Of a DNA stretch of 43,253 nucleotides, positions 3,086 to 37,193 are shown piece after piece. How positions within the stretch are numbered: the stretch's first letter is position 1; each line of letters opens with the position of its first letter. A program made the position numbers and the translations under genes. The stretch comes from a virus. Below the pieces are notes generated by a model, which worked only from the letters and a program-made list of their open reading frames with translations, was not told the origin of the DNA and searched no databases. The stretch is taken from the IMG/VR virus record IMGVR_UViG_3300017963_000400, positions 1-43,253 of that record; one strand, given 5' to 3'.

Positions 3086-4527
3086 GTTGACGACGAACCC
3101 TTGTCCTTCTTGCTCTGGCGCTTCTTCGCGATCTCCTTGAGGGCCTTCTCCTTCTGCTTGAGCTTCCAGAACCTCGCCGCGCTCCACTGGCAGAGCTTGC
3201 GCTGCTCCCTGGGATCCTTCTTGCTCTTCGACTCGTATTCCACCGTCCCCGTGATCTCCTTCGTCACCGCGTAGAGAGTCGGGAACTTGTTGCCCTGGTA
3301 GCTGTAGTGGTCCTCGTGCACCACCACCGTGCGGTCCTGCCCCTTCCACGGCCGCGTCAGCGTCGTGCCCGGCTCCAGTCCCGCGATCAGCGGACTCTTG
3401 GACCGCTCCCGCTCGAACCGGGCGCCGTACGTGTGTTCGCCCCACTCGTTGCGGGCGCGCTGCTGCTTCTTCTTGGGGGCGGCCGGTGCCGATGCAGACG
3501 CGGCAGGCTTCTTTGGGCCACGCTTCTGGGACGCCTTCTTGGTGCGGCTCTTCTTGGCCTGCTTTCCTGACTTTGCCGGACCCGCCGCAGGCTCGGCAGA
3601 CCCGGCCACCGTAGGGTCCACAGGCGCCTCGCTGGGCGCCTGGGGCGCAGGCTCAGCTGGCGGCGTCGGGTCGGGTGGCGGTGGGGCCTCCGGCGCCGCA
3701 GGGGGCGCGACAGCCTCCGCTGCGGGTGCCTGGGCCTCGGGCTGAGGCGCGGGCTGAGGCGCGGGCTGCGCCGGAGGCTCGGGGGGTGCTGCGGGCGGCT
3801 CCTGCCAGGTGCCCTCGACCGAAGCACCAGGCGGGATCGTCGGCGGCTGGCCGTCAGGCAGCTGGTAGGTGCCGGCCGGCGGAGCTGTCGCTGGCCCCAG
3901 CGCCAAGGTGGCCGCGCCCTCTGGGAGCTGATAGGTCGCTGGGGGGTCCGTCGACACCGGCGGGCCGCCGACGGCCTCAGCCGGGATGCCCAGGCCGACC
4001 TCATTCTCGTCGACGCCCGCGGGCGGCTCGCCCTGTTCCAGCTTTCCAGCCTCTTGCTCGAGGTCGAGCTGGGCGCTTTCCTGACTTTCCGGCTCGGGCG
4101 CCGGCCCCTGCGCGCCCGCGGCGCCGTTGTCGCCGGCCGCGGCAGCGCTGGCCGCCCTGGAGCGCGCCAGCTGAATCAGCTCGGTGCTCGTCTCCAGCTC
4201 GTCGGCGATGGCCGCGAGATCCTCGCCGTGTGCGGCCGCCGCGCGCTCCACGTTAGTCAGGAAAGCCGCCTCGCAGCTTCCAGACTTAAAGTGGTCGCAG
4301 CTGTAGCAGTCGTCGGATTCCTGACTCTCCGACGTGGTCGGGTCCCAGCGGTACGTCGGGTCCCAGAGAATGCCGTGGCACTCGATGGTCCCGAAGTCCG
4401 TGGGCGACCTTCCTGCCTCTACGTGCGCTATGAGCTTCGTCAGCTCGTCGTCGGTGGTAGCGTGCGTCCAGGGCACGCCCAGAGCGTTGGCGCGCTGTTC
4501 GAGCGCGCTTCGATCGATGCTGCCCAT
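3082..4527 (-). CDS. Multidomain Pro/Ala-rich protein with Cys motif and basic C-terminus
   Basis: A 481-residue protein with ATG at 4525-4527 behind AGGAGG. Residues 1-40 resemble a HeH/LEM-type helical DNA-binding element (LEQRANALGVPW, DDELTKLI). A cysteine cluster (CYSCDHFKSGSC) around residue 75 may bind metal. Residues of roughly 180-320 are Pro/Ala/Glu low complexity with two TYQLP units. The C-terminal 150 residues are very basic (KKSRTKKASQKRGPKK and later Lys-rich helices). A 45-bp stretch (3875-3919) is identical to one in the gene at 27832-28428. The triplicated promoter element lies directly upstream. Nucleic-acid binding is inferred; the function is not recognised. Confidence 0.8.
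   Translation of the reverse strand: MGSIDRSALEQRANALGVPWTHATTDDELTKLIAHVEAGRSPTDFGTIECHGILWDPTYRWDPTTSESQESDDCYSCDHFKSGSCEAAFLTNVERAAAAHGEDLAAIADELETSTELIQLARSRAASAAAAGDNGAAGAQGPAPEPESQESAQLDLEQEAGKLEQGEPPAGVDENEVGLGIPAEAVGGPPVSTDPPATYQLPEGAATLALGPATAPPAGTYQLPDGQPPTIPPGASVEGTWQEPPAAPPEPPAQPAPQPAPQPEAQAPAAEAVAPPAAPEAPPPPDPTPPAEPAPQAPSEAPVDPTVAGSAEPAAGPAKSGKQAKKSRTKKASQKRGPKKPAASASAPAAPKKKQQRARNEWGEHTYGARFERERSKSPLIAGLEPGTTLTRPWKGQDRTVVVHEDHYSYQGNKFPTLYAVTKEITGTVEYESKSKKDPREQRKLCQWSAARFWKLKQKEKALKEIAKKRQSKKDKGSSST
3875..3919 (-). repeat. 45-bp exact repeat, copy 1
   Basis: Identical over 45 bases to 27962-28006 and read in the same frame in both host genes, encoding GAATLALGPATAPPA. Flanking sequence differs on both sides. 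Confidence 0.95.
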
Positions 4528-10334: not shown

Positions 10335-10364
10335 ATAAAACACACGGCAGCCGGAAACGCTACA
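10335..10364 (-). promoter_or_regulatory. Promoter-like element TGTAGCG-N13-TGTGTTTTAT, copy 2
   Basis: Minus-strand TGTAGCG (10364-10358), exactly 13 bases, TGTGTTTTAT (10344-10335). As in copy 1, the upstream box overlaps the stop codon of the preceding gene and AGGAGG plus a start codon follow within about 20 bases. Confidence 0.7.
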
Positions 10365-11853
10365 CGGCCGCGAAGAATTGTTCGGGGCCCTGCATCACAT
10401 CGACGGAGAAAGTCGGCTCTTCGTAGTAGACCCGCAGCCGCTCCTTGCTGTGCTCCATGAGCTTCTTCTGGTGTCGGTCGGCGAAGTCCACGATCAGCGC
10501 CTCCGACTTTCCAGCCTTTGCCGTGCACACCCGAAAGGCGCTCTGGGTGAGCGTGACCTCCGCACGCTCCCCGCGCGCGTACACCAGCGCGTCTGCGCTC
10601 GGGAGGTCCACGCCCTCACCGACCAGCGAGGTGCCCAGGAGAATGCCCACCTCGTCGGTCTCGACGAAGGCGTCAATGATCCGCTCGGTCACCGGCCGGG
10701 CCGTGTCCGTCGACACGAACTCCGCCCTGTGGAACTCGGTGCCGTTCTTAGGCGGCAACATCGACTGTATGTAGCCGAGCAGCGTGCGGCCCTGGACCTT
10801 CGTCCCGACGAGCATCAGCACCTTCTTGCCGCGCTGCCAGAGGTGCATCGCGCACCTGGCGGCGAGCACGTTGCGCGGGATGCACTCGTGGATGCCCAAC
10901 TTGCCGTGGCCGACGTTGAATGAGCCCATCTGCGACGGCAGCCGCTCCGCGTCGAGCACTGGCAGAAACAGCACACGCGTGGGCACGAGGAAGCCGCGCT
11001 CGAGCAGCTCCAACGTCGTCACCTTGTACAGCGTCTGCGACAGCAGCGCGTGCATGGCGAGGTCATCTTCGCCGCTGCGGAAGAAAGTACCGGTCATCCC
11101 GAAGCGGTAGAAGATGTGGTCGGCCTTCTTGAAGATGTCGCGGTAGGTCTTCGCGGCGCCGTGGTGCCACTCGTCGACGATCATCATGTGCCGCGTGTCG
11201 TAGAACTCCTGGGGCAGCCGCACGGCCGTCGCTGCGGTGCACACGACGACGCGGGCGCTCGCCAGCTCTTCGGGCGTGCACTTCTTCGTGCCCTCCGCGT
11301 GCACGGCGTAGTGCTTCCCCATGTACTGCTCGATCACCCGGCGGGTCTGCCGCACGATGCGGTCGGTGGGCGCGATCCACAGGCAGGGGTGGTTGAGCTG
11401 CCGTTGCAGCTCGACGGCCAGCCGGGTCTTGCCCGACCTGGGCGGCATGTCGAAGACACCGCGGCCGACCTCGACACCGACGCGCACGGCCTCGGTCTGA
11501 TAGTCGCGCAGCTCGAGATCAGCAAACTCTGGAATCTCGTCGGCCGGGCGCTGGCGGAGGTCGAGGTAGTTGACGTGCCAGCCCCAGCTCGCGCAGAGCC
11601 TCGACGTCATCTCGAGCAGCCCCGTCGGGAACCAGGGCGGGATCGTCATCGGCCGGCGGAGCAGCCGCACCCAGCCATCCCAGCCCCCGCAGTCGCCGGG
11701 CGCTTTCCAGTCATCTTCCTCAGCGTCGGCGAGCGCGCTCGGGTAGGCCAGCCGAGACTCGAGCGCGTCGAGTAGGTTCGGCGGCGCGCCGTGCACATTC
11801 GTCCGGCCGTTGAAGACCTCGAAGGTGACGGCCGGTGCAGTGACGGGATACAT
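10360..11853 (-). CDS. Superfamily 2 DNA helicase (UvsW/DEAD-box-like)
   Basis: 497 residues. LRDYQTEAV (Q119) precedes Walker A PPRSGKT at 137-143; a DEWH Walker B lies at 227-230, followed by GMTGTFF (motif III). The C-terminal RecA domain has KVLMLVGTK, LGTSLVGEGVDLPSADALVY (motif V) and TLTQSAFRV (motif VI region). About 110 N-terminal residues form an extra domain, as in phage UvsW-type branch-migration helicases acting in recombination-dependent replication and fork repair. It begins 260 bases downstream of promoter-like copy 3, after a structured leader. Confidence 0.9.
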   Translation of the reverse strand: MYPVTAPAVTFEVFNGRTNVHGAPPNLLDALESRLAYPSALADAEEDDWKAPGDCGGWDGWVRLLRRPMTIPPWFPTGLLEMTSRLCASWGWHVNYLDLRQRPADEIPEFADLELRDYQTEAVRVGVEVGRGVFDMPPRSGKTRLAVELQRQLNHPCLWIAPTDRIVRQTRRVIEQYMGKHYAVHAEGTKKCTPEELASARVVVCTAATAVRLPQEFYDTRHMMIVDEWHHGAAKTYRDIFKKADHIFYRFGMTGTFFRSGEDDLAMHALLSQTLYKVTTLELLERGFLVPTRVLFLPVLDAERLPSQMGSFNVGHGKLGIHECIPRNVLAARCAMHLWQRGKKVLMLVGTKVQGRTLLGYIQSMLPPKNGTEFHRAEFVSTDTARPVTERIIDAFVETDEVGILLGTSLVGEGVDLPSADALVYARGERAEVTLTQSAFRVCTAKAGKSEALIVDFADRHQKKLMEHSKERLRVYYEEPTFSVDVMQGPEQFFAAV

Positions 11854-11884
11854 CCGAAGAAGCCCTCTCCCCCAGGCTAACGCG

Positions 11885-11948
11885 AAGCGTACGAGAGCAG
11901 CGGGCGAAGCCCGCTACCGAGAGGTGGCTTCCACCTCTCGGTACGCTT
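11885..11948 (-). ncRNA. Attenuator-like pair of mutually exclusive hairpins
   Basis: On the minus strand, arm 1 (11948-11927) can pair with arm 2 (11943-11931 region versus 11927-11915) as a perfect 13-bp stem with an AAG loop (TACCGAGAGGTGG with its complement). Alternatively its AAGCGTAC-C-GAGAG part (11948-11935) can pair with arm 3 (11898-11885) over 13 bp with one bulged C. A third hairpin, AGCGGGC-UUC-GCCCGCU (11915-11899), sits between. The two conformations cannot coexist, which is the hallmark of attenuators or riboregulators. It lies 32 bases before the SF2 helicase start. Confidence 0.55.
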
Positions 11949-12011
11949 TCCGTCAGTGTCTGGAAACGTCTCGACTCATACTCCGTATGCGTCTCCGTTT
12001 GGATCCCGTTA

Positions 12012-12041
12012 GGGACCCGTACATAGACATGTACGGGACCC
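12012..12041 (-). ncRNA. Leader hairpin
   Basis: Perfect arms CCCGTACAT and ATGTACGGG around a 4-base loop, extended beyond one A/A mismatch by GGG and CCC (12012-12014 and 12039-12041). Part of the non-coding stretch 11854-12168. Confidence 0.65.
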
Positions 12042-12054
12042 TTACGGTGCTCTT

Positions 12055-12089
12055 CCGCCCCCTAAGCGCTCTGCGCTGTCTGGGGGCGG
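12055..12089 (-). ncRNA. GC-rich leader hairpin
   Basis: Outer arms CCGCCCCC (12055-12062) and GGGGGCGG (12082-12089), inner arms AGCGC (12065-12069) and GCGCT (12073-12077). It is the first hairpin transcribed from promoter-like copy 3. No U run follows, so it does not look like a simple terminator. Confidence 0.65.
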
Positions 12090-12119
12090 TTGGGCGATGA
12101 ACCCGAAAGCTCATACCAG

Positions 12120-12149
12120 ATAAAACACATCGCGGACGCGATCGTTACA
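12120..12149 (-). promoter_or_regulatory. Promoter-like element TGTAACG-N13-TGTGTTTTAT, copy 3
   Basis: Minus-strand TGTAACG (12149-12143), exactly 13 bases, TGTGTTTTAT (12129-12120). Unlike copies 1 and 2 it is not beside a start codon: about 260 bases of structured, gene-free DNA separate it from the SF2 helicase. It marks the border between the membrane/structural genes and the replication block. Confidence 0.7.
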
Positions 12150-12168
12150 GGCGGGTTGAAATTTCTGC

Positions 12169-12639
12169 TCACTCGAGTGTCTGGATCGTCTTCACGGCCG
12201 CGATGTAGAGCCCTGTGAGCACGACGGTGGTGCCGACGATGGCCGCGGTCGCGACGACGGCCGGGTGCTCCCACCACGGCCTGGCCTCGACTTCCTCGAG
12301 CGCCTTTTCCAGGCTTTCCGTCTTCTCGCGGCACGCGTCCCGGTCGATGGTGCGCAGCTCCTTCTCGTGCGTGAGGTTGGCCGCGCCCAGCTCGGCAACG
12401 CGCTCAACCTCGAGCTGGGTCCAGGCGCTGCACTTCTCCGCCTTCTGTCCCAGGCTGATGGCCAGGGGCGTGGTCACCAGCTGGCCGGTGAAGGGCGCAG
12501 GGGCGCCCTCGCCCAGCGGGACGGCGCAGTGGGTAGGCTCGTCCGGGTCGCAGGCCTCTGCGGGCTGTGGGCGCGCCTCAGCGGCGACTGCGAGCGCCAG
12601 CGCGGACCAGATAGGCAGCCAGAGCTTGTGGGTCTTCAC
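12169..12639 (-). CDS. Exported or membrane protein, spanin-like partner
   Basis: 156 residues from GTG 12637-12639 behind CGGAGG; the first 62 bases overlap the end of the previous gene in another frame. N-terminal signal-like segment (basic KTHKLW, hydrophobic LPIWSALALAVAAEA), a Cys-containing extracytoplasmic part, a coiled-coil segment (ELRTIDRDACREKTESLEKALEE) and a second transmembrane helix (VVATAAIVGTTVVLTGLYIAAV). The overlap with an Rz-like gene recalls Rz/Rz1 spanin pairs, but no clear lipobox is seen, so this is tentative. Confidence 0.65.
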   Translation of the reverse strand: MKTHKLWLPIWSALALAVAAEARPQPAEACDPDEPTHCAVPLGEGAPAPFTGQLVTTPLAISLGQKAEKCSAWTQLEVERVAELGAANLTHEKELRTIDRDACREKTESLEKALEEVEARPWWEHPAVVATAAIVGTTVVLTGLYIAAVKTIQTLE

Positions 12640-27831: not shown

Positions 27832-28428
27832 TCAAGCGAAGGGCGTGTTGACCGGCCCAGGGTACACGATGAAGCCGCCCAGACTGGCCGAGAAGACCGG
27901 AGCCGCCAGCGTCGAAGTCGCCGCCAGCGCGATGGACCGGTCCCAGGGGATCTCCACAGGAGCCGGCGGAGCTGTCGCTGGCCCCAGCGCCAAGGTGGCC
28001 GCGCCCGCAGCGATGAACGCCCCGGGTAGCGCCGGCAGCGTCACCGGGGGTGTCGCAGAGACCGCCCCTGGAAACAGGGTCGCAGCTCCGGCCGAGACTG
28101 CGGCCCAGAACGCCGTGATGCCGGCCGTAAGCGCCGCCGGCGCCGTACCTGGCCCGGTGAGCCCGGCGTCCATGGCAGCGACCAGGGCCGTCTCGCAGCC
28201 GTCCAGAATCGGCCCAGGCACCGGCGGGCTCGGACCCCCGCCCTCGGCGAACATGGCGGCGTAGGCGTAGCCCCAGGCTTGCCCGACAGTGTAGAGCGGC
28301 GCCGACGGCGGATCGCCCGGCCAACCCGCGCCAGCTCCAATCCCGGGCGGGAGGTCGGTCGGGTCATTAGTCGCCGGCACCATGAAGTCGGCCATCTTGG
28401 TCGCCATGGTGGCTGCGGACATCGCCAT
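27832..28428 (-). CDS. Ala/Pro/Gly-rich tail protein
   Basis: 198 residues, ATG just after the spike gene stop (TGA-GCC-ATG). Composition is dominated by Ala, Gly, Pro and Thr, with hydrophobic stretches and little charge, organised as several APxx-, TPP- and GPA-type segments. A 45-bp block is identical to one in the unrelated Pro-rich gene at 3082-4527. Its place between the spike and the LysM protein suggests a baseplate or hub accessory. No family recognised. Confidence 0.7.
   Translation of the reverse strand: MAMSAATMATKMADFMVPATNDPTDLPPGIGAGAGWPGDPPSAPLYTVGQAWGYAYAAMFAEGGGPSPPVPGPILDGCETALVAAMDAGLTGPGTAPAALTAGITAFWAAVSAGAATLFPGAVSATPPVTLPALPGAFIAAGAATLALGPATAPPAPVEIPWDRSIALAATSTLAAPVFSASLGGFIVYPGPVNTPFA
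27962..28006 (-). repeat. 45-bp exact repeat, copy 2
   Basis: Identical to 3875-3919 and in the same reading frame. Confidence 0.95.
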
Positions 28429-34883: not shown

Positions 34884-37193
34884 CTACGCAGCGCTCTGGC
34901 GGATGGTGATCAGGTGGATGGTGATGGGGACGAAGTTAATCGGGACCGCGGGCGCGACCTGGACACTCATTTCGAGAGTGTCGACGATCAACTCGATGTT
35001 GAGCGCCTGGTGCGCGACCATAGCCTCCTCGTCGATCAACAGCCCCAGCTTGTTGATCGCGGCCGACTTGCCGGCGTTCACCGTCCCGGCAAAGCCCTTT
35101 TTCCCGACGACGATCTGCATCGCCTGGCGGAACTCATAGCTGATGAAATTCGAAGCCTCGTTGACTGAGGCCTCCGTGAACGCCACATTGGAAGACGACA
35201 GGTGCGTCGTGACGTTGCGAACGACACGGCGGCCGACGCCGTCGACGGCCTCCATGAAGCAGCAGCCGCCGGCGATCATCTCTTCGGCGTCGTCGATGGG
35301 GTTCCACGTCGCGTGCTGCCGCAGCGCGAGCACGTTGGCGTACTTGCTCGTCAGCGACGTGCCGACGGACGAGCCCGCCTGCATCCCGGCGATGACCGCC
35401 GCATGGAACGGGGGCAGGAACTCAGAGCGCTCACCCGCGCTGTCGAAGCGCTCGACCGCCTGACCGACGAGGCGCGCGTGCCGCGTGTTGAGGTCGACGA
35501 CCTGCGCCTTGTATTCGTCCTTCGTCGGGACGTCGGTGAGACCGGCGTTGAGGGCGCCGGCGACGAAGTCGCGCTCGCTGCGCCCCAGGCCGCCCATGTA
35601 CGCGCAGTGCGCGTCGCACATCGCGTGGACCGCCGGGTCGCCGGTGAGCGGCACGACGGTGTTGACCCGCACCTGCTTGAGCAGATTGAGCGCGTCCTGC
35701 CAGTGCTGCGACGTGGTGGTGCCCTCGCCGCCGCCGGTCAGGAAGATGGGCGCGACCGTGTTGCTGGGCGCGCCGCCGCTGGCGCCGGTGGCCGCGGCCG
35801 CCGTGACGTACTGGCTGTTCTGGTTGATCCAGTCGATCACCGCCCAGAGGTCGGCGGTGAAGCCCGGGTCGGCCGGGTTGAGCACGCTCACCGCCGAGAC
35901 CATGACGTCGAGATCGCTCATGGCGAAGCTGGTGAGGCCGGTGGCCACCGTCAGCGTGAAGCCGTAGTCGCTCCCGCCGTAAGTCTCCTTCTTGGCGTTG
36001 AAGTAGTCGGCCGCCTTCTGGATCGTGGTCTGGGTGGTGCCGACGCTCTCTGCCGCCTCTGCGGAGAAGGTGAGCGTCCGCGCCGCCTCGACGTCGCCGA
36101 GCAGCATAACGGTGATGGCGGAGTAGTCGCCGACCGTCTGCACGCCGGTAGCGCCATTGAGCTGCACCCGCTCGCGCTGCACCGCGCCCGAAGCACTGAG
36201 CCCCTGAATGATCACGTCCTTGGTGGTCGCGCCGTCGGCGACGAAGTCGAGCTTGCCGGCGTTGACGAACATCGCCACGCCCTCGACGAGCCCCTGGGTC
36301 AGGGTCGCCGGCGCCAGGGCGCAGACCGCAGCGCCGCCGCCGTCCGCCTGGACGGTGACGGTGCCGACCGAGGCCGCGCTCTTGCGCGCACCCAGCACCT
36401 TGGTGAAGGTGCCGGAGAAGTCCACGGCCGTGAGCCCGGTCAGGGTCACCTTGCTGTAGAGCACGTTGCTGGACCCGTCGAGGCCCCAGACCTCGACCTC
36501 CTGGGTGGTGTCGCCGGCGTCGGAGCTGACCACCTCGAGCGCGGTGGCCGCGCCCGGCTGGGTCATGTCGGCGTCGAGGCCGCCCTCGTCGCGGGTGCCG
36601 TTGCACTCGACGCTGCCACCCGAGAGCACCTGGCCGGTCATCGCGTCCCAGCTCTTGGCGTGGGCCACGTAGGTCAGGTTGAAGATGTCGTCGCCGCCGA
36701 TGTTGTCCTCGCTCTCGACGTCATCCTCGAAAGTGATCGTGATCAGCTTGCCCTGGGTGGTGCCGTCGGCGATGCTGATGTTGATCTGCGACGTGAACTC
36801 GCCGTAGTCGGCGCTGGTCACGTCCATCGCGTCGCCCTGGGCGTTGGCGAAGCTCGCGGCCGACTGGGTCGCCGGGTTCACCTTCATGGCGATGACCTCG
36901 GCAGCGCCCGCGGGCACGTCGACGTCCTTGCCCGGCTCGAAGAGCATCCCGCCGACCTCGCGCAGGTCGCCCGAGCGGAAGGTCTTGCGCATCGCCTCCG
37001 GCTTGTAGAAGCGAAGGAGATCCTTCACCTCCGTGATGGCCGACACCGGGCGCCCGCCCTCGGCGGTGCCCAGCACAGCGACGACGCCCGTTGCGCCCAG
37101 CGCGACCCCCTCGAGCCCAGAGGCATCGGTCTCGCTGTAGACTCCGGGGCGCCTGATGACTTTCCCGAGGAAGAAGATCGAAGATGCTGTCAT
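34884..37193 (-). CDS. Contractile tail sheath protein
   Basis: 769 residues from ATG behind AGGAGACCGC. N-terminal RRPGVYSETDASGLEGVALGATGVVAVLGTAEGG is the typical sheath start; the C-terminal 250 residues (LVGQAVERFDSAGERSEFLPPFHAAVIAGMQAG, DEASNFISYEFRQ region, GKSAAINKLGLLIDEEAMVAH) carry the conserved sheath core. It is much longer than common sheaths (about 400-660); residues about 190-380 form Thr/Gly/Val-rich beta domains inserted in the core, probably exposed on the virion surface. Contraction drives tube penetration. Confidence 0.92.
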   Translation of the reverse strand: MTASSIFFLGKVIRRPGVYSETDASGLEGVALGATGVVAVLGTAEGGRPVSAITEVKDLLRFYKPEAMRKTFRSGDLREVGGMLFEPGKDVDVPAGAAEVIAMKVNPATQSAASFANAQGDAMDVTSADYGEFTSQINISIADGTTQGKLITITFEDDVESEDNIGGDDIFNLTYVAHAKSWDAMTGQVLSGGSVECNGTRDEGGLDADMTQPGAATALEVVSSDAGDTTQEVEVWGLDGSSNVLYSKVTLTGLTAVDFSGTFTKVLGARKSAASVGTVTVQADGGGAAVCALAPATLTQGLVEGVAMFVNAGKLDFVADGATTKDVIIQGLSASGAVQRERVQLNGATGVQTVGDYSAITVMLLGDVEAARTLTFSAEAAESVGTTQTTIQKAADYFNAKKETYGGSDYGFTLTVATGLTSFAMSDLDVMVSAVSVLNPADPGFTADLWAVIDWINQNSQYVTAAAATGASGGAPSNTVAPIFLTGGGEGTTTSQHWQDALNLLKQVRVNTVVPLTGDPAVHAMCDAHCAYMGGLGRSERDFVAGALNAGLTDVPTKDEYKAQVVDLNTRHARLVGQAVERFDSAGERSEFLPPFHAAVIAGMQAGSSVGTSLTSKYANVLALRQHATWNPIDDAEEMIAGGCCFMEAVDGVGRRVVRNVTTHLSSSNVAFTEASVNEASNFISYEFRQAMQIVVGKKGFAGTVNAGKSAAINKLGLLIDEEAMVAHQALNIELIVDTLEMSVQVAPAVPINFVPITIHLITIRQSAA

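Follow-up and report, generated by a model that had tools for sequence, protein, structure and literature searches.

For large uncultured phages, little is known about where replication starts or which RNA controls act on whole operons. The virus DNA analysed here (43,253 bases, referred to below as the window) carries at the head of its replication genes a hairpin-dense segment which an earlier note had read as a two-state RNA switch, and the question is what such a segment does. We consider a control region or a replication start site more likely than a switch of this kind. Our main reading, with a probability of a little over one in three (about 0.37), is that it may be a control region heading the replication block of a large tailed phage family and containing a replication origin.

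Locus, promoter motif and predicted folds

The genes tested near 11854-12168 are all on the minus strand, where the segment separates the stop of a small membrane-protein gene, at 12169, from the ATG of an SF2 helicase, at 11853. The gene order on this strand runs from the tail genes to the small membrane protein, the leader, the SF2 helicase and then a DnaB-like helicase, a primase and a PolA-type polymerase. The position at the border of the membrane and replication blocks, as first described, is thus correct. The features of the locus are the following.

10360..11853, minus strand: UvsW-like SF2 helicase, first gene after the leader (PHROG DNA helicase, 1.6e-53; Pfam ResIII, 6.2e-19)
11872..11963, minus strand: H4, three-way junction (minimum-energy fold), with a hairpin at 11943-11915, a GC hairpin at about 11914-11900 and a closing stem of 11948-11941 with 11892-11885
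11973..11993, minus strand: H3, small hairpin GACGCATAC-gga-GTATGAGTC, from folding
12006..12047, minus strand: H2, long inverted repeat with 19-nt arms, 89% complementary, and a 4-nt loop, the first-listed inverted repeat of the window
12055..12089, minus strand: H1, bulged hairpin CCGCCCCC-AGAC-AGCGC-AGA-GCGCT-TA-GGGGGCGG, from folding, recurring upstream of the helicase in relatives
12120..12149, minus strand: phage promoter-like motif TGTAACG-N13-TGTGTTTTAT, with a predicted transcription start near 12113

The segment had been called gene-free. No database-recognisable gene was found in 11854-12168, but the leader does contain one 53-aa ATG ORF (11953-12114), the ATG of which falls approximately at the predicted transcription start. 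A tRNA/tmRNA search gave no hit, and Rfam 15 at the gathering score gave no match in the window, the sub-threshold matches to the leader being only two chance ones. The window is probably a fragment, because a 70-kb contig (G001) overlaps it via an identical 4.3-kb stretch and relatives reach 109-110 kb. Its tail sheath (34884-37193) resembles that of PHB04-type phages of ~90 kb (~30-33% identity), and its replication genes are of the PolA/DnaB/UvsW type. Additionally, a 52-nt segment occurs twice in the window, at 3875-3926 and 27962-28013 (94% identical, 24 kb apart), once on the replication side and once on the tail side.

The motif TGTARCG-N13-TGTGTTTTAT is present in 3 copies with identical spacing in the window (12149-12120, about 10364 and 4577), and a fourth copy, with 2 mismatches, is found in G001. 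The other three copies are followed by an RBS and a start codon within ~25 nt, and only the copy at 12149 precedes a long leader, of ~260 nt. The promoter call made earlier appears to stand, the candidate motif being real and recurring with a fixed spacing just ahead of gene starts. A scan with the N13 spacing returned 7 stretches, compared with 10 for the N14 spacing used as a chance control; two of the 7, from the same virus, were judged real, and the remaining ones have no gene in common with the window except for one weak polymerase match. N4-type hairpin promoters were considered and set aside, the hairpins being unlike each other and no virion RNA polymerase being recognised among the genes scanned.

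The leader exhibits a minimum free energy of -153.8 kcal/mol, with a z of -6.8 and 0 of 100 shuffles as good, and the opposite strand is also over-structured in comparison with shuffles (z of -6.5). In a scan of 359 sub-windows, the best z (-6.8) corresponds to 11881-12080 and the second best to 12001-12200. The four hairpins or hairpin groups reported before are therefore present, in the most structured of the 359.

The pairings proposed for the arm 11948-11927 also exist: a perfect stem of 13 bp and an alternative of 13 bp with one bulged C. They are, however, not mutually exclusive, since the minimum-energy fold accommodates 8 pairs of the long-range stem together with 10 of the hairpin; in this fold, AAGCGTAC/GTACGCTT (8 bp) closes a three-way junction bearing both the AAG-loop hairpin and the GCGGGC hairpin. 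The calculated energies are -59.9 kcal/mol for the junction, -54.6 for the state with the full 13-bp hairpin and -49.2 for the proposed switch state, which is 10.7 kcal/mol less stable than the junction, and the sole competing segment, GAGAG/CTCTC, has a pair probability of about 0.001. Thermodynamic folding, which the earlier note had named as a check, thus gives no two exclusive folds of comparable stability. No T-run terminator precedes the helicase RBS in the window, and neither switch state includes a terminator. The RBS itself is outside the junction; in the full fold it shows a weak long-range pairing with the 5' end of the leader and no link to the two arms. A pair of alternative stems that is convincing by eye can, in this way, be one stable junction.

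Relatives and the recurring hairpin

A direct DNA similarity search of phage records and a genome scan with the single helicase returned no relatives, single-protein scans of IMG/VR returned only another assembly of the same virus, and a broad UvsW-type alignment returned general UvsW helicases only. An alignment of the tail sheath with those of Bordetella phage PHB04-type phages led to a closer family in IMG/VR, the helicases of which (47-51% identical) were aligned and used for further scans. About a dozen divergent relatives (helicases 45-58% identical) show non-coding sequence at this junction, mostly hairpin-rich and usually preceded by a small membrane protein of the same kind. The reading as a structured leader behind a promoter, located at a functional border and holding its position in relatives, is supported.

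The leaders of L220 (z of -8.2), L209 (-7.5), L218 (-6.3), L210 (-4.6), L199 (-4.0) and L216 (-3.2) are over-structured, as is that of L203 (-4.8), for which the interval includes a possible antisense ORF. Seen in this relative only, this ORF (3496-3790, minus strand, ~95-150 aa) has the membrane gene on one side and H1 on the other. The excess of structure is weaker in L200, L206, L213 and L214 and absent in L205, and L202 and L204 present no such leader before the helicase. L206 is CP070677.1, a record of about 3.59 Mb named Candidatus Latescibacterota, in which the helicase is 54% identical and the membrane-protein gene similar; the locus is possibly a prophage or a binned phage, and could be a hint about hosts.

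The overall leader sequence is hardly conserved among the relatives, and the individual hairpins other than H1 differ between them. Significant local similarities between the window leader and those of relatives (shuffle p of 0.015 and 0.005; ten comparisons) fall on H1 only. H2 has no sequence counterpart in relatives, and neither has the hairpin pair of the proposed switch in the leaders compared, where other hairpins are found; conservation of the alternative pairing is hence not borne out.

H1 is present upstream of the helicase in L199, L200, L203, L209, L210 and L216, with inner stems that are changed yet paired. Its plan consists of C4-5, a left bulge of 4-9 nt, an inner stem of 4-7 bp, a loop, the partner strand, a short right bulge and G4-5 with outer pairs. 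The inner stems begin with GCGC in the window, ATGCC in L203, CGCC in L199, CCGCT in L200, GGCTACC in L209, GCTC in L210 and GCCACT in L216, each with its partner. H1 is not alignable by structure with MAFFT, and its recurrence was counted with a simple descriptor, set up when seven of the members were already known; G021/L201 and the weak L218 match played no part in its design. Among the 18 closest leaders scanned, 8 have a match to it upstream of the helicase, for a background expectation of 0.035 per 330 nt. When both strands of six long genomes (85-110 kb) were considered, the H1 near the leader was one of the top two descriptor matches in four (G020, G010, G022 and G021), while in a fifth, G030, the match at the junction is a different palindrome.

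In the sister phages L201 and L219, the H1-type hairpins adjoin the membrane gene and other open frames lie between them and the helicase. As the hairpins stay at the membrane gene, away from the helicase, H1 is tied to the junction and is no switch specific to the helicase. Changes on both sides keep 9 of the 91 predicted pairs between L213 and L214, and one pair, in the CGCTTCGCG hairpin, is kept by a double change between L201 and L219. Tandem GC hairpins are found within the likely N-terminal extension of the helicase in L213 (2253-2354), L214 (3896-4000), L216 (3902-4000) and L218 (3899-4000), and there L213 and L214 differ by a three-pair swap (GGGGGC/GCCCCC vs GGCCCC/GGGGCC) with the stem kept. 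Differences in H1 core length between relatives are not divisible by 3; for this reason, and because the start of the 53-aa ORF nearly coincides with the predicted transcription start, leader-peptide attenuation was rejected.

The observation is real and extends past the leader of a single phage. An element fixed at one gene junction despite sequence turnover would mark a control point across a phage family. We found no description of H1 in the literature. It may tentatively be regarded as the core of a structured element, not described before, that large uncultured phages carry, working as RNA in cis on the replication operon (for instance as a putRNA-like antiterminator) or priming replication, with its shape kept while nearly all of the sequence changes; as a whole, this proposal is somewhat unlikely.

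Possible replication origin, leader RNA and other readings

In the origin reading, a phage promoter would fire into the non-coding, hairpin-dense segment, and the transcript would continue as the leader of the replication mRNA. Transcription would open the DNA near an AT-rich sequence and expose the hairpins, H1 above all, which replication or recognition proteins might then use; the hairpins would be fixed structures and not a two-state switch. An AT-rich stretch of 60 nt, at a percentile of at least 0.995, is present in 14 of the 15 leaders. Relative to H1, it is on the downstream side in L200, L203, L210, L213 and L214; in L199, L209, L201 and the window it is found either upstream of H1 or at the promoter, being the promoter itself in the window. 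Clusters of GATC are found in L209 (6 vs 1.5 expected) and L210 (8 vs 0.9 expected), and direct repeats in the leaders of L218, L220, L201 and L219; direct repeats were not found in the window leader. The GC-skew step has the sign expected at an origin in five of six genomes, although it is weak, was tested after the fact and could also be caused by gene content; the genome maximum of the skew step is at the element in G021, and in G020 a maximum is located ~2.3 kb away. We lean towards a promoter-containing origin from these AT-rich stretches, repeats or GATC clusters and skew steps. Also in its favour are the promoter motif, of which only this copy has a long leader, the best structure score in the window, the non-coding region kept at this junction by divergent relatives, the recurrence of H1 and its place at the junction in L201 and L219. 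Folding of the hairpins is about as good on one strand as on the other, as is expected if the DNA matters, and turnover of the sequence at a fixed position would fit origins whose binding sites co-evolve with their proteins. On the other hand, promoters, too, commonly have AT-rich sequence and palindromes, and no initiator was found.

Nearly as likely as an origin is a leader RNA that has a single fixed fold and works in cis on the replication operon. In it, H1 and its neighbours would act on RNA polymerase by processive antitermination, protect the mRNA 5' end or tune translation of the first gene. The location, immediately after a promoter where a long operon begins, and the single orientation of H1 relative to this operon are consistent with it, as are the stems kept by two-sided changes in L213/L214 and L201/L219. 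In 10 of 13 leaders the sense strand gives a slightly better fold than the antisense strand, but the G-T vs A-C counts reveal no significant preference for RNA (27:17, p of 0.17; 11:7). L205 has a terminator-like hairpin with a T-run just before the helicase, which would need antitermination or regulation. Against this reading are the hairpins within the likely helicase coding region in L213, L214, L216 and L218, and the lack of an Rfam match. H1 is a small, mutable target for telling a DNA origin from a leader RNA.

The segment could also encode a free-standing small RNA of the phage, ~250 nt long and acting in trans, and processing of the leader into a small RNA is possible. Its own promoter motif, the dense structure, a position independent of the helicase in L201/L219 and the terminator-like hairpin of L205 point in this direction; in contrast, the window presents no terminator before the helicase, the overall sequence is hardly conserved and Rfam again has no match, which makes a trans-acting RNA unlikely.

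It is improbable, too, that the hairpins have little function and are late-gene terminators, operators and palindromes gathering in the gap between gene blocks. Their replacement, H1 excepted, in every relative, the absence of excess structure in L205 and the terminator-like hairpins directly 3' of the upstream gene in L209 and L210 are in line with this, whereas the recurrence of H1 on a fixed plan, the strong excess structure in many relatives and the double changes preserving stems argue against it.

Finally, both pairings of the arm 11948-11927 are present in the sequence, but with one junction holding both, no terminator tied to either state and no sequence counterpart in the relatives compared, a two-state attenuator or riboregulator is very improbable and, as far as computation can say, wrong.

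Comparison with known systems

Leader attenuators of bacterial and phage operons place several hairpins before the first gene. The window leader resembles them in having several hairpins and a short ATG ORF before the first gene, and differs from them in that it lacks exclusive alternative folds and, in the window, a terminator, and in that we could find no conserved leader peptide.

For a leader RNA, the nearest known mechanism, by analogy, would be HK022 putRNA, an RNA-only antitermination system. Two stem-loops make up its ~70 nt, and its sequence similarity is recognisable. Of its sites, putL closely follows PL, and putR is found ~270 nt downstream of PR (PMC9378689). The window leader fits it in position, with a predicted structured RNA behind a candidate promoter at the operon head, the putRNA promoter being an early one; the H1 plan is different.

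For an origin, the comparison is with T4, in which oriF (uvsY) and oriG (34) contain a promoter and an AT-rich unwinding element and the UvsW helicase removes R-loops (PMC3016281). Here, the polymerase is of the PolA type, unlike that of T4, the stretch is hairpin-dense, the AT-rich part in the window overlaps the promoter instead of being downstream of it, and the origin role is read from sequence. Nevertheless, as at the T4 origins, a candidate phage promoter would fire into an AT-rich or easily opened stretch, and a UvsW-like helicase is encoded. Considering that oriF and oriG combine a promoter with an unwinding element, the origin and leader-RNA readings would, by this analogy, not be exclusive.
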